This document shows, piece by piece, positions 32,522-36,251 of a stretch of DNA of 40,010 nt. Numbering within the stretch: the stretch's first letter is position 1; the number at the start of each line of letters is the position of its first letter. This DNA is from Candidatus Sulfopaludibacter sp. SbA3. GTDB taxonomy: Bacteria; Acidobacteriota; Terriglobia; Bryobacterales; Bryobacteraceae. The position numbers and the translations under genes are program-made. The DNA lies in the NCBI GenBank assembly GCA_945893365.1, contig CAMDED010000064.1, forward strand, positions 1 to 40,010, read 5' to 3'. The notes beneath the pieces are model-generated. The model was not told the origin of the DNA. It searched no databases and saw only the letters and a program-made list of their open reading frames with translations.

Positions 32522-32658
32522 TCAGATGATCGGAACCGTCTGCTCAGGAGCCCGCGGGAAACAGGCGTTTCTCCATTATTGTTACACTAAAAGGTGGTGC
32601 CGGAGCATACGGCCTTGAACCGCCGTAGGCCGTCGGCGCATGCCCAAGGATGTGGACC

Positions 32659-34005
32659 GTGCAACACGGACCCGGAACGAAACCGAAGTTGTTTGCCGCT
32701 CTTGCCCTCGCCGCCGCAATCGTCCTCGCCAGAGCTCAAACCGACCTCGGGGGCTCCATCGTCATGGGCTTCGACGATCCGGCCATCCAGTACGCCTCAA
32801 ACGTGCTGAAAGACCCTATCAGCGAACTGCAGCGCAAACTCGACCGCGGCGAAGCGAGACTGCGGTTCGACAAGGAACGCGGCTACCTGCCCTCCGTCCT
32901 GGAACTTCTGAAGGTTCCGGTATCCTCCCAGGCTCTGGTGTTTTCAAAGACCAGCTTCCAACTTCAGCGCATTACACCGCAAACGCCGCGCGCGATCTAC
33001 TTCAACGACCAGGTTTATATCGGCTACGTGGTCGACGGAGATGTCGTCGAGGCGTCGGCTGTAGACCCGGAAAAAGGCGCGATCTTTTATACGCTCGACC
33101 AGAGCGGCAAGACCACGCCCCGGTTCGTGCGCCGCGACGAATGCCTGCAGTGCCACGCGTCTCCGAGGACCCTGGGGGTGCCCGGCCACATGGTGCGCTC
33201 GGTCTACACCGGCACCGACGGCTACCCGATTTTCCAGGCCGGCGGCTTCGTCACCGATCACCGTTCCCCGCTCAGGGAACGCTGGGGAGGATGGTACGTG
33301 ACCGGAACCCATGGCGCGGACCTGCACATGGGGAATGCCTTCTTGCGGGGCGATAACCCCGATGCCATGGACCTGAAAGCGGGCGCGAACGTGACCGATC
33401 TCGCCAGCCGCTTCGATACGGACCGCTATCTTTCTCCCCACAGCGATATCGTGGCGCTGATGGCGCTCGAACACCAAACGCGCATGCACAACCTGATCAC
33501 GCGGGTCAGCTATGAGGCGCGAACGGCGATGGAGCAGCAAGTGTCCATGAACCGGGCGCTCAAGCGGCCCGATGACGAATGGTCGGACTCCACGCGGCGG
33601 CGTATTTACGGGCCGTCGGAAGTGCTGCTTCAGTACATGCTGTTCCGTGACGAAGCGCCGCTCCACGCCCCAGTCAAAGGCACGTCCGCCTTCACGGCCG
33701 ATTTTCCCCGGCAGGGGCCGAGGGATCGCAAAGGGCGTTCCCTGCGGGATCTCGACCTGACCAAGCGGCTCCTGCGCTATCCGTGCAGCTATCTGATCTA
33801 CTCCGAGGCCTTCGACGCTCTTCCGAAAGAGGTGGCCGAATATGTCTACCGGAGGCTGTGGGAAGTGCTTTCCGGCGGCGACACGGGGAAGGTTTACGGA
33901 ACGCTCACGGCCTCGGAGCGGGCTGACATCGCCGGGATCCTGCACGACACCAAGCCCGCGTTTGCCGCGTACTGGGACTCAAGACGGGGTTCGAGCACCC
34001 GCTGA
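32659..34005 (+). CDS. exported protein with a single CxxCH heme motif, uncharacterised family
   Basis: This protein has about 448 residues. The GTG at 32659 is preferred because AAGGA lies 8 bases before it; an ATG at 32650 in the same frame is the alternative. A signal peptide (KLFAALALAAAIVLARA) sends it to the periplasm. The middle carries a single heme-type C162-L-Q-C-H166 within RRDECLQCHAS. Around it are strongly patterned blocks (VFSKTSFQLQRITPQTPRAIYFND, GVPGHMVRSVY, RWGGWYVTGTHG) that I associate with an unnamed family of large mono-heme proteins found in several phyla. Function is unknown; electron transfer or redox sensing is possible. It is divergent from the glycosyltransferase gene. 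Confidence 0.8.
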   Translation: MQHGPGTKPKLFAALALAAAIVLARAQTDLGGSIVMGFDDPAIQYASNVLKDPISELQRKLDRGEARLRFDKERGYLPSVLELLKVPVSSQALVFSKTSFQLQRITPQTPRAIYFNDQVYIGYVVDGDVVEASAVDPEKGAIFYTLDQSGKTTPRFVRRDECLQCHASPRTLGVPGHMVRSVYTGTDGYPIFQAGGFVTDHRSPLRERWGGWYVTGTHGADLHMGNAFLRGDNPDAMDLKAGANVTDLASRFDTDRYLSPHSDIVALMALEHQTRMHNLITRVSYEARTAMEQQVSMNRALKRPDDEWSDSTRRRIYGPSEVLLQYMLFRDEAPLHAPVKGTSAFTADFPRQGPRDRKGRSLRDLDLTKRLLRYPCSYLIYSEAFDALPKEVAEYVYRRLWEVLSGGDTGKVYGTLTASERADIAGILHDTKPAFAAYWDSRRGSSTR

Positions 34006-34060: not shown

Positions 34061-34096
34061 TTGACGTTTTGGCCGCTTCGTACTAACTTATTAGTA
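34061..34096 (+). promoter_or_regulatory. blaI promoter with overlapping BlaI-type operator
   Basis: TTGACG (34061-34066), a 17-base spacer and TAACTT (34084-34089) form the promoter. A perfect 6-4-6 palindrome TACTAA-CTTA-TTAGTA (34081-34096) covers the -10, the predicted transcription start and the first base of the ATG. BlaI/MecI repressors bind TACA/TGTA-type palindromes, so autorepression is likely. Transcription starting at about 34096 would make the message leaderless. Confidence 0.75.
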
Positions 34097-34485
34097 TGAA
34101 GCCGCCGAGTACAACCCTCACCGCTCAGGAACTCGAGATCATGAAGATCGTCTGGCGCCTGGAGAAGGCGACCGTGCGCGCCGTTTATGAAGCTTTGCTC
34201 GAACGCCGCAAGATCGCCTACACCACGGTCATGACGATGATGAAGATCCTCGAACAGAAGAAATACCTGTCCAAGAGCCGGGACGAGAAGGCGTTTGTCT
34301 ACACGCCTTCGGCGCCTCGCAACCAGGTGATTAGAGGTATGGTGCGCGAGTTTGTCGACCGCGTTTTCAACGGAGCGGCCGAGCCTCTGGTCGCTCATCT
34401 TGTCGAAGACCGGAAGCTCTCGCAGAAGGATTTGCGCGAGATCGCGCGCATGATTCGCGCCAGCGCCGAAGGGAGCAAGAAATGA
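34096..34485 (+). CDS. BlaI/MecI/CopY family transcriptional repressor
   Basis: This 129-residue winged-helix repressor has LTAQELEIMKIVWRL as the first helices, TVRAVYEALLERRKIAYTTVMTMMKILEQK as the recognition region, and a wing at SKSRDEKAFVYTP. The C-terminal dimerisation half (MVREFVDRVFNGAAEPLVAHL) follows. In BlaI/BlaR1 systems a membrane metalloprotease triggers cleavage of the repressor. The partner gene overlaps its last 4 bases (ATGA). The operator sits over its own start site. In Acidobacteriota such pairs are numerous and mostly not linked to a beta-lactamase; none is seen here. Confidence 0.93.
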   Translation: MKPPSTTLTAQELEIMKIVWRLEKATVRAVYEALLERRKIAYTTVMTMMKILEQKKYLSKSRDEKAFVYTPSAPRNQVIRGMVREFVDRVFNGAAEPLVAHLVEDRKLSQKDLREIARMIRASAEGSKK

Positions 34486-36251
34486 ACTACGCGCTGTGGT
34501 TACAGAATCTGGGACTGTATTGTGCGCAGGTCGCGATCGTCGCCCTGGCAGGGGCCCTGGCTGCCGCCGCATTCCGCATGCGCGCTCCCGGGCCTCGTCT
34601 GCTTTACTGGCAGATTGTGCTGTCCGCCTGCCTAATTCTCCCCGCCGTGCAGCCTTGGAAACAGGCGCCCTCGGGGCAGGATGACGTGCAGGTCGAAATT
34701 CGCGGCGCGCGGACTGCGCAGTCTCCCCAACGCGGCGAAACGGTTCCGATCGAGCTTGCGGTGGCGATCCTTCTCTCCGCCGGCGTCGCCCTGCGCACCG
34801 CGTGGCTCGCAGCCGGATTTCTAAAACTCCGGTCCCTCCGCCAAACCGCGCGGCTTGTCCATCCGCCGCTCCCGGCGATAGAGGAGATGCGCCGAAAAAC
34901 CGGTGTCGACGCGCCGGCGTTTCTCTCTTCCCGTATTTTGAGCCCCATCGCGATGGGCGTTTTTCGGCCAGCCATTCTGTTGCCGGAGCGCTTTCTCACC
35001 ATGCCGGTCGAAGAACAGCGAGCCGTGGCTTGCCATGAGCTGCTGCACATCCGCCGGCGGGATACTCTCATTGTCATCCTCGAGGAGTTCGTCCGCGCCG
35101 TCCTTTGGTTCCATCCCGCCGTGTGGTGGATTCTGGGCCAGATTCATTTGACCCGTGAACAAGCCGTGGACCGGGAAGCGGTGCGGCTCACGAAGTCGCG
35201 GGCGAGCTATCTCACCGCGCTGCTGGCCATGGCGGAAGCGAAGGTGCGGCTCGACCTCGCGCCCGCCCCGTTGTTTTTGAGAAAACGCCATCTCGCGAAA
35301 AGAGTGGCGTCCATCCTGATGGAGGTAACTATGTCGAAACGTCGAATGATTCCGTCCATGGCCGCGATGCTTGGTGTGCTTCTGGCCGCCGGCCGCGTGG
35401 CTGTACTTGTCTTTCCCTTGCAGGCCCAGGCGCAGGAGGGCGAGAGTCCGCGCGTCCTTCACAAGGCGCTCGCGGTCTATCCAGCGGAAGCGAAACAGAA
35501 GCGCATTGAGGGCGCCGTGACTATGGAAATCTCGCTCGATGCAAAAGGCAACGTCACCGACGCCCGCGCCGTCAGTGGTCCGGAGGAGTTGCGCGCGGCC
35601 GCGCTGCGATCGGTGCTTGATTCGCATTACGCAAACGATTCCGGGTATGCCCGGAAGGCGACGGCGACGGTTGAATTCCGGCTTGGCGATCAGGCCCAAG
35701 CCGTGAACAGGGCCGTTGTGAATCCGGCAAGAGATATGGGGCGCGTGCAGCGGATTCAGATCGAGGGCGTCACCGCAAGCGCGCAAGAGACGCTTCAGAG
35801 CCGGATTCCGGTGCGGGTCGGCGATCTGCTGAGCGCGGACTTGCAGAACCGGACCCGTGAAGCCGTGCGGGATGTTGACGAACATCTGGGCGTCTGGTTC
35901 AGCCCCGCGGAGGGTGGATCCGCGGTAAGGATCGGACTTGCGGGAAAGGCGACTTCGCCTGAACAGATTCGAATAGGCGGCAATATTCAAGCGCAAAAGA
36001 TCGTGACGAAGGTCAGGCCGTTGTATCCGCCGCTCGCGAAACAGGCGCGCCTCGAAGGCACGGTGAGGCTGTCGGTCGCGATCGCGAAAGACGGCACTGC
36101 GAAGGAAATCAACGTAGTGAGTGGAGAAGATCTGCTGGCGCCGTCTTCCATTGAAGCGGTGAAGCAGTGGGTCTGGCAACCGACCCTGCTCAATGGCAAC
36201 CCCGTCGAAGTATTGACCGACGTCGACATCAACTACACGCTCGCCAAGTAG
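34482..36251 (+). CDS. M56 BlaR1-like membrane metallopeptidase fused to TonB C-terminal and POTRA-like domains
   Basis: This 589-residue protein has N-terminal membrane helices (about residues 8-30, 40-58 and 88-108). The M56 peptidase region has the zinc motif H185-E-L-L-H189 and a helix at VLWFHPAVWWIL. A further membrane helix lies near 292-312. The outside part is not a penicillin-binding domain. It has a TonB_C-like domain (about 320-405, ALAVYPAEAKQKRIEGAVTM), a POTRA-like segment (about 420-485, RIQIEGVTASAQETLQSRIPV), and a second TonB_C-like domain (about 503-589, VRPLYPPLAKQARLEGTVRL). It is probably a sensor-protease acting on the BlaI repressor encoded just upstream, with a periplasmic ligand read by the TonB_C/POTRA module. 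The ATGA overlap indicates coupling. Confidence 0.85.
   Translation: MNYALWLQNLGLYCAQVAIVALAGALAAAAFRMRAPGPRLLYWQIVLSACLILPAVQPWKQAPSGQDDVQVEIRGARTAQSPQRGETVPIELAVAILLSAGVALRTAWLAAGFLKLRSLRQTARLVHPPLPAIEEMRRKTGVDAPAFLSSRILSPIAMGVFRPAILLPERFLTMPVEEQRAVACHELLHIRRRDTLIVILEEFVRAVLWFHPAVWWILGQIHLTREQAVDREAVRLTKSRASYLTALLAMAEAKVRLDLAPAPLFLRKRHLAKRVASILMEVTMSKRRMIPSMAAMLGVLLAAGRVAVLVFPLQAQAQEGESPRVLHKALAVYPAEAKQKRIEGAVTMEISLDAKGNVTDARAVSGPEELRAAALRSVLDSHYANDSGYARKATATVEFRLGDQAQAVNRAVVNPARDMGRVQRIQIEGVTASAQETLQSRIPVRVGDLLSADLQNRTREAVRDVDEHLGVWFSPAEGGSAVRIGLAGKATSPEQIRIGGNIQAQKIVTKVRPLYPPLAKQARLEGTVRLSVAIAKDGTAKEINVVSGEDLLAPSSIEAVKQWVWQPTLLNGNPVEVLTDVDINYTLAK

Follow-up and report, generated by a model that had tools for sequence, protein, structure and literature searches.

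A BlaR1-type protease with a predicted TonB_C–POTRA–TonB_C sensor, and its operator in Bryobacterales

The window analyzed here (the whole stretch of 40,010 nucleotides from Candidatus Sulfopaludibacter sp. SbA3) encodes a member of the M56 family of BlaR1-type membrane proteases, identified both by its zinc motifs and by its fold. In place of the penicillin sensor of BlaR1, the protease by which penicillin resistance is switched on, the periplasmic part of this protein is predicted to fold as TonB_C–POTRA–TonB_C, and what the protein monitors is probably the outer membrane and not an antibiotic. With a slight inclination in its favor, we propose a BlaR1/BlaI-type relay contained in one protein, whose new sensor would respond to strands from the outer membrane. 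New here are the operator dyad, which lies over the promoter and start codon of the repressor gene, the other genes that it precedes in relatives, and the additional copies of the sensor.

Table 1. Features of the blaI–M56 locus, in positions of the window
Feature	Position	Strand	Remarks
-35 element TTGACG	34061..34066	+	14 bases 5' of operator
Operator dyad TACTAACTTATTAGTA	34081..34096	+	over -10 region and first base of blaI start codon
blaI-type repressor gene	34096..34485	+	129 aa; PF03965, 121.2 bits
M56 transmembrane protease gene, predicted TonB_C–POTRA–TonB_C sensor	34482..36251	+	589 aa; ATG start
Loop EL1 (residues 57-89, between second and third helix), V-x-V strand motif	34650..34748	+	from model and motif count
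Zinc-binding motif HELLH (residues 185-189)	35034..35048	+	H185, E186 and H189 invariant in 48 sequences
Third zinc ligand motif E226-x3-D230	35157..35171	+	invariant in 48 sequences
Last membrane helix (residues 286-310)	35337..35411	+	helix in model; membrane location by analogy with BlaR1
First TonB_C domain, TB1 (residues 321-402)	35442..35687	+	family-specific, diverged; Pfam and model
POTRA domain (residues 415-487)	35724..35942	+	sub-threshold Pfam match, model and structure comparison
Second TonB_C domain, TB2 (residues 494-589)	35961..36248	+	close to C-terminal domain of TonB

The blaI–M56 Pair and Its Relatives

The two genes overlap by four bases (Table 1), and a BlaI family gene is present in 74 of the 79 loci related to this pair. 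Among named relatives, the closest are Bryobacterales assembled from metagenomes and other Acidobacteriota. Both genus mates keep the architecture of the M56 protein (78–81% identity), which recurs elsewhere in the family and in the order Bryobacterales; two relatives (L266 and L267) each encode an M56 protein with two POTRA and three TonB_C matches. A search of 72,556 plasmid records for relatives of the M56 protein returned one weak match only. One locus of Bryobacterales type (L271) lies in record CALQCC020000019.1, which is titled Bordetella parapertussis, a label that looks wrong.

Four M56 genes in total, including that of the window, are found in the genome (7.88 Mb). By Pfam, the protein encoded at L053:8578-10170 carries CarboxypepD_reg (56.7 bits) followed by a C-terminal TonB_C, and the one at L051:11647-13569 carries TPR repeats, likewise followed by a C-terminal TonB_C. 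The last (L052:9139-11592) is an unusual BlaR1-type protein: it lacks any match to TonB_C and has a C-terminal repeat of the IGSDGDK(S/A)R type.

The protein encoded at positions 32650-34005 of the window is 451 aa long, contains a single haem-type CxxCH motif, is 87–89% identical in both genus mates and has no Pfam match at E values up to 1; its gene adjoins the pair in genus mate G002, but lies about 6 kb away in G001. When blaI, M56 and overlapping frames were set aside, the conserved neighbors (clusters in at least four of the 79 loci) were ADOP, DUF3738 and small TonB_C proteins, as well as a receptor-like and a glycosyltransferase-like gene, both named by eye.

Protease Domain and Repressor

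Peptidase_M56 was matched at residues 74–277 with 91.4 bits (Pfam cut-off 31), and the modeled membrane protease fold aligned with Staphylococcus aureus BlaR1 (8exs) over 249 residues, with Z 18.7 and rmsd 5.5 (VIA-align). PMC9834060 names H201EXXH, D210 and E242XXXD in BlaR1. By spacing, residues H185, E186, H189, D194, E226 and D230 of the window protein match H201, E202, H205, D210, E242 and D246 of BlaR1; D194, like the residues of the two zinc motifs, is invariant among the 48 aligned M56 sequences. Y243 and R274, which are candidates for BlaR1 Y261 and R294, are also invariant in the 48, but their spacing is off by two and four residues, respectively.

The repressor aligns without gaps with MecI 8–120. 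In S. aureus BlaI, the cut falls at N101–F102 (PMC9834060). This region is ungapped from MecI to the window BlaI, in which residues 101–102 are H-L, and a motif ending in H-L-V-E occurs in 56 of the 80 complete repressors (22 unmatched, two that differ). By analogy, the M56 protein would cut BlaI near residues 101–102.

Predicted Fold of the Sensor

Pfam matched TonB_C (104 bits) in two stretches, the best at residues 512–587. An AlphaFold2 model, built from a 48-sequence alignment (mean pLDDT 86.1, pTM 0.60), shows the b-a-b-b-a-b order of TonB_C at residues 325–399, a second TonB_C fold at 507–585 and, between the two, the b-a-a-b-b order of POTRA at 421–486. In VIA-align, where models without a true match often score Z 7–8, TB1 (323–402) matched Neisseria TonB 9ddz (Z 11.2, rmsd 1.8 over 77 residues), TB2 (502–589) matched FoxA-bound TonB 6i97 (Z 11.4, rmsd 1.6 over 86), and the POTRA segment (about 415–488) had its best rows in the Omp85 structures 2x8x, 3mc8 and 3mc9 (Z 9.6–9.8), with BamA rows at Z 8.6–9.2 (rmsd 2.0–2.8) and TamA POTRAs also among the matches. 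Foldseek agreed for BlaR1 and TonB; its POTRA matches were weak (E 0.04 and above). At the sequence level, PF07244 was matched at residues 421–464 with 16.3 bits, below the cut-off of 21.3, and when POTRA segments of relatives were searched alone, one passed this cut-off (L238, 22.1 bits) and one fell under it (L224, 15.3 bits). Since Z alone is insufficient and Foldseek is weak here, the POTRA reading combines fold order, VIA-align Z and weak sequence scores.

Custom profiles were used to count these domains across the order, in 82 BlaI-led operons drawn from 257 genomes. Complete M56 genes with both TonB_C and POTRA were found in 55 operons, with TonB_C only in 17, and with neither in two; six M56 genes are cut by contig ends, and two operons have no M56 ORF in reach. 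This recurrence argues that the architecture did not arise by chance. POTRA was undetected in 19 of the 74 complete M56 genes, so this type of protein does not depend on it. An earlier note on this DNA had described a BlaR1-like protease in which a TonB_C–POTRA-like–TonB_C sensor replaces the penicillin-binding one. That description stands: AlphaFold2 and structure comparison agree on the architecture, Pfam finds no transpeptidase or penicillin-binding sensor domain in the window M56 protein, and the C-terminal part yields TonB_C and POTRA folds in AlphaFold2 and VIA-align.

Operator and Promoter of blaI

The dyad that reaches into the start codon of blaI is perfect and has the form TACTAA-N4-TTAGTA; in the window and its orthologues, the sequence upstream of blaI reads TTGACA-N14-TACTAA-N4-TTAGTA-TG. 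If a 17-base spacer is assumed, the -10 hexamer falls at 34084-34089 and leaves six bases between itself and the ATG, a proximity that makes a leaderless blaI transcript probable. BlaI would presumably bind the dyad.

Within the 7.88-Mb genome, 34081-34096 is the single occurrence of the perfect dyad. If one mismatch is tolerated, one further site appears, versus four for the reversed control, and when the -35 box is included and up to three mismatches are allowed, the window site stands alone, versus two for the control. No such dyad was seen, by eye, upstream of the three other blaI genes located next to M56 genes in this genome. The single perfect copy suggests that the pair may control only itself. 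Fourteen of 16 relatives carry the perfect dyad (control, zero). One perfect dyad among these relatives, G019:C147:6743 (L078), has no gene start at the site.

Operator-Linked Genes across Bryobacterales

The full dyad–start-codon pattern, TACTAANNNNTTAGTRTG, was scanned in the 257 genomes of the order; it was found in 88 and absent from 169, and the control gave four matches overall. The 111 distinct sites correspond to 121 oriented matches, ten of which are the back strands of the same sites. The gene that starts at the site is blaI in 82 of the 121 matches, and in three further blaI operons the frame is broken or a gene is inserted before blaI (L127, L194, L203). A TTGACA-like hexamer (five or six of six bases) is present at 14–15 bases in 77 of the 82 blaI promoters.

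DUF3738 genes start at the site in six cases, one of which (L202) was assigned with a custom profile, its Pfam score of 15.7 bits being below the cut-off of 22; a seventh starts shortly downstream (L075). Single cases are a tonB (L176), genes for a CarboxypepD_reg protein (L124) and for a protein with TPR (L181), and an unassigned gene that is truncated (L199). The blaI-type -35 hexamer stands at 14–15 bases from the non-blaI sites L075, L077, L114, L176, L181 and L199, and at 16 bases from L204, and it is weaker (four of six) at L124 and L202. In JAIQFJ010000096.1 (L248), the tonB, with its perfect operator, is divergent from a blaI–M56 pair behind an imperfect dyad; as 16 TonB_C matches were counted in that genome, this tonB is one TonB_C gene among several. 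A tonB stands beside the pair in one of the 79 related loci. With the divergent tonB set aside, the non-blaI sites of this first class belong to six genomes (G032, G063, G076, G220, G254, G257), all of which hold an operator-led blaI–M56 operon, versus 83 of the 257 overall, a comparison that ignores kinship. At L076, a DUF3738 gene follows a dyad that lacks the start codon, and in OKRF01000226.1 (L240:3666-7731) the order is operator, DUF3738, blaI, M56, DUF3738.

The operator provides a first handle on the DUF3738 proteins, for which no publication was found in a search of open-licence literature and no sequence match in the PDB. A fold model based on four sequences only (pLDDT 60) had no usable structural match, and a likeness to secretin/STN domains received no support. 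The window genome gave no DUF3738 match, in a search that was also without a match in control genomes.

At 15 sites the gene encodes an ADOP-type permease, with the dyad exactly at the start codon (L073, L120, L148, L150, L151, L158, L159, L162, L168, L172, L173, L175, L187, L188, L190). TIGR03434 is over its cut-off in L073, L120 and L188, and the other 12 were assigned with a four-sequence custom profile. Together with two DUF3738 sites, these sites lie in a different context, with TA or CA ahead of TACTAATTCN-TTAGTATG and with the constant center TTC; 13 of the 15 have no -35 box of at least five matches at spacings of 13–17, and the other two have one at 17. Because the surroundings differ, the ADOP permeases and the two DUF3738 genes were rejected as members of a BlaI regulon. 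The ADOP-type sites appear to form a second class, possibly served by another regulator; no PadR-type gene turned up in these loci in a simple motif search, which does not amount to a search by family. In L246 and L247, ADOP genes over the TIGR03434 cut-off lie downstream in the operon, after a TonB_C gene.

What the Sensor May Detect

TonB_C and POTRA domains bind their partners through extended beta-strand pairing: TonB pairs with TonB boxes, and the POTRAs of BamA with segments of outer-membrane proteins. Since both kinds of domain pair with strands, an exposed outer-membrane strand is the likely signal, and envelope or receptor sensing is plausible for a protein with these domains. In the proposed relay, BlaI would occupy the dyad of its own, leaderless-looking operon, over both the promoter and the start codon. 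The M56 protein would span the inner membrane with the N-out/C-out topology of BlaR1, placing the zinc site in the cytoplasm and TonB_C–POTRA–TonB_C in the periplasm. The strand could be the TonB box of a receptor that is engaged or in surplus, or a barrel segment that has not been assembled. Its binding would, in the direction of response that we infer, activate the protease, which would cut BlaI and derepress the operon. The output would be the pair itself in the window genome, would extend to protease-less sensor copies and DUF3738 proteins in some relatives, and would include a TonB in one genome.

The kinship of TB2 with cellular TonB bears on the nature of the strand. TB2 from 48 M56 proteins shares a median of 62% identity with the C-terminal domain of 18 cellular TonB (864 pairs), versus 56% for TB2 against TB2 among orthologues (1128 pairs); the 18 TonB, picked by length, proline run and C-terminal motif, are clear cases only, and the 62% partly reflects the lower variation among them (77% identity, TonB against TonB). 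The window TB2 is 54% identical to the TonB of the same genome over 96 residues. For TB1, the median identity to TonB is 24%. No proline run precedes TB2 in the sequence, the N-terminal part being the M56 domain. Given this closeness, binding of TonB-box-type peptides by TB2 is reasonable, and the distance of TB1 from TonB implies that such binding is not required of every module.

It is possible, although we think it improbable, that the periplasmic modules sense other things (a small molecule, peptidoglycan or a soluble protein) and that TonB_C is a generic scaffold. TonB_C indeed ends two other M56 proteins of the window genome, after TPR or CarboxypepD_reg, and some relatives encode small TonB_C proteins close to the pair. 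However, a generic scaffold does not explain why TB2 shares, on average, more identity with cellular TonB than with the TB2 of its orthologues, and POTRA accompanies TB2 in 55 of the 74 complete genes.

Within the strand-sensing relay, a more specific scheme, which we hold to be rather unlikely, is that TB2, as a mimic of the TonB C-terminal domain, competes with TonB for exposed TonB boxes and thereby measures unmet TonB demand, with loop EL1 filling the groove at rest. In BlaR1, EL1 sits in the active site of the sensor. When boxes exceed TonB, they would displace EL1, which carries a TonB-box-like V-x-V strand, the protease would cut BlaI, and the cell would produce additional sensor modules, along with additional TonB in at least one species. 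The V-x-V motif is present in the EL1 of 28 of the 48 sequences, versus a shuffle mean of 7.9 (0 of 2000 shuffles reach 28); because kinship among the sequences inflates this count, the motif is kept as an idea only.

The earlier note had also suggested a link of gene control to the three receptors in the window. That special link is not borne out, since these receptors are 13–29 kb distant, their family (OMP_b-brl_4) has at least 65 members in the genome (of 193 candidates, the 65 that were scored all gave strong matches), and the sole perfect operator is the pair's own. The broader idea of control by receptor occupancy is strengthened by the likeness of TB2 to TonB and by the tonB target of one relative, but not by the window receptors. 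A TonB-box motif search in receptors matched only three sequences, too few for use.

Extra sensor copies are encoded in some operons. In 10 of the 82 blaI-led operons, a TonB_C gene without HEXXH begins 2–51 bases after the M56 stop (nine of the 10 with POTRA), and a second M56 gene is found in five; both counts are lower bounds, as only 66 of the 82 loci have at least 3.4 kb of downstream sequence. Outside this count are two further candidate copies, in L117 and L140; each overlaps with its M56 gene and may reflect a break in the frame. Single-domain TonB_C proteins of 120–125 aa are also encoded near the pair (L246, L260, L271, L288). These small proteins and the protease-less genes would fit a reading in which the TonB_C modules are mainly output, that is, periplasmic TonB mimics that compete with TonB and so damp receptor traffic, with the protease only as the switch. 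We consider this quite improbable: in most operons, including that of the window, the protease is the only TonB_C/POTRA product found, and these domains occupy the sensor position of BlaR1. A classical antibiotic-responsive BlaR1/BlaI pair, to which the two protein families and the paired genes would conform, is very improbable indeed, given the missing transpeptidase-type sensor (Pfam), a score of 64.6 bits with the NCBIfam BlaR1 model, far below its cut-off of 400, and no beta-lactamase or penicillin-binding protein among the assigned operator-linked genes of the order.

Comparison with Known Systems

The window pair resembles BlaR1/BlaI and MecR1/MecI of S. aureus in its protease fold, zinc motifs, repressor family, adjoining genes and C-terminal extramembrane sensor. 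It differs from them in its sensor, which is TonB_C–POTRA–TonB_C instead of a penicillin-binding domain, in that no beta-lactamase target was seen, and in an operator that covers the start codon of a leaderless-looking blaI. TB2 likewise resembles the TonB of ExbBD–TonB, both in its identity to the TonB of its own genome and in the match of its model to FoxA-bound TonB, but the window protein lacks the proline-rich spacer and the energized N-terminal helix and is fused to a protease. With BamA/Omp85, the common element is the b-a-a-b-b POTRA fold (Z up to 9.8); unlike these proteins, the window protein has a single POTRA, between two TonB_C domains and under the Pfam cut-off, and no barrel.

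In DegS/RseP, the state of the outer membrane is read by regulated proteolysis. Cell-surface signaling is described in PMC7593790 as a TonB-dependent receptor, an anti-sigma factor and a sigma factor. The proposed relay would share with both the reading of outer-membrane state via regulated proteolysis, as an analogy only, and would differ in that its presumed substrate is a repressor and not an anti-sigma factor.

Fusions of TonB_C with M56 are present in databases for other phyla, and a title and abstract search of open-licence papers found no publication on BlaR1, BlaI or M56 proteins with a TonB-type sensor. To our knowledge, it is not established how bacteria with very many TonB-dependent receptors adjust the supply of TonB, or the repair of the envelope, to their receptor load. 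If the proposal is correct, a TonB-like sensor on a BlaR1-type protease would answer this question directly, and a function would be given to this class of M56 proteins. In a Riemerella lipopolysaccharide mutant, a BlaI-family gene was up about 3-fold, according to PMC5294843, an observation that is suggestive only.
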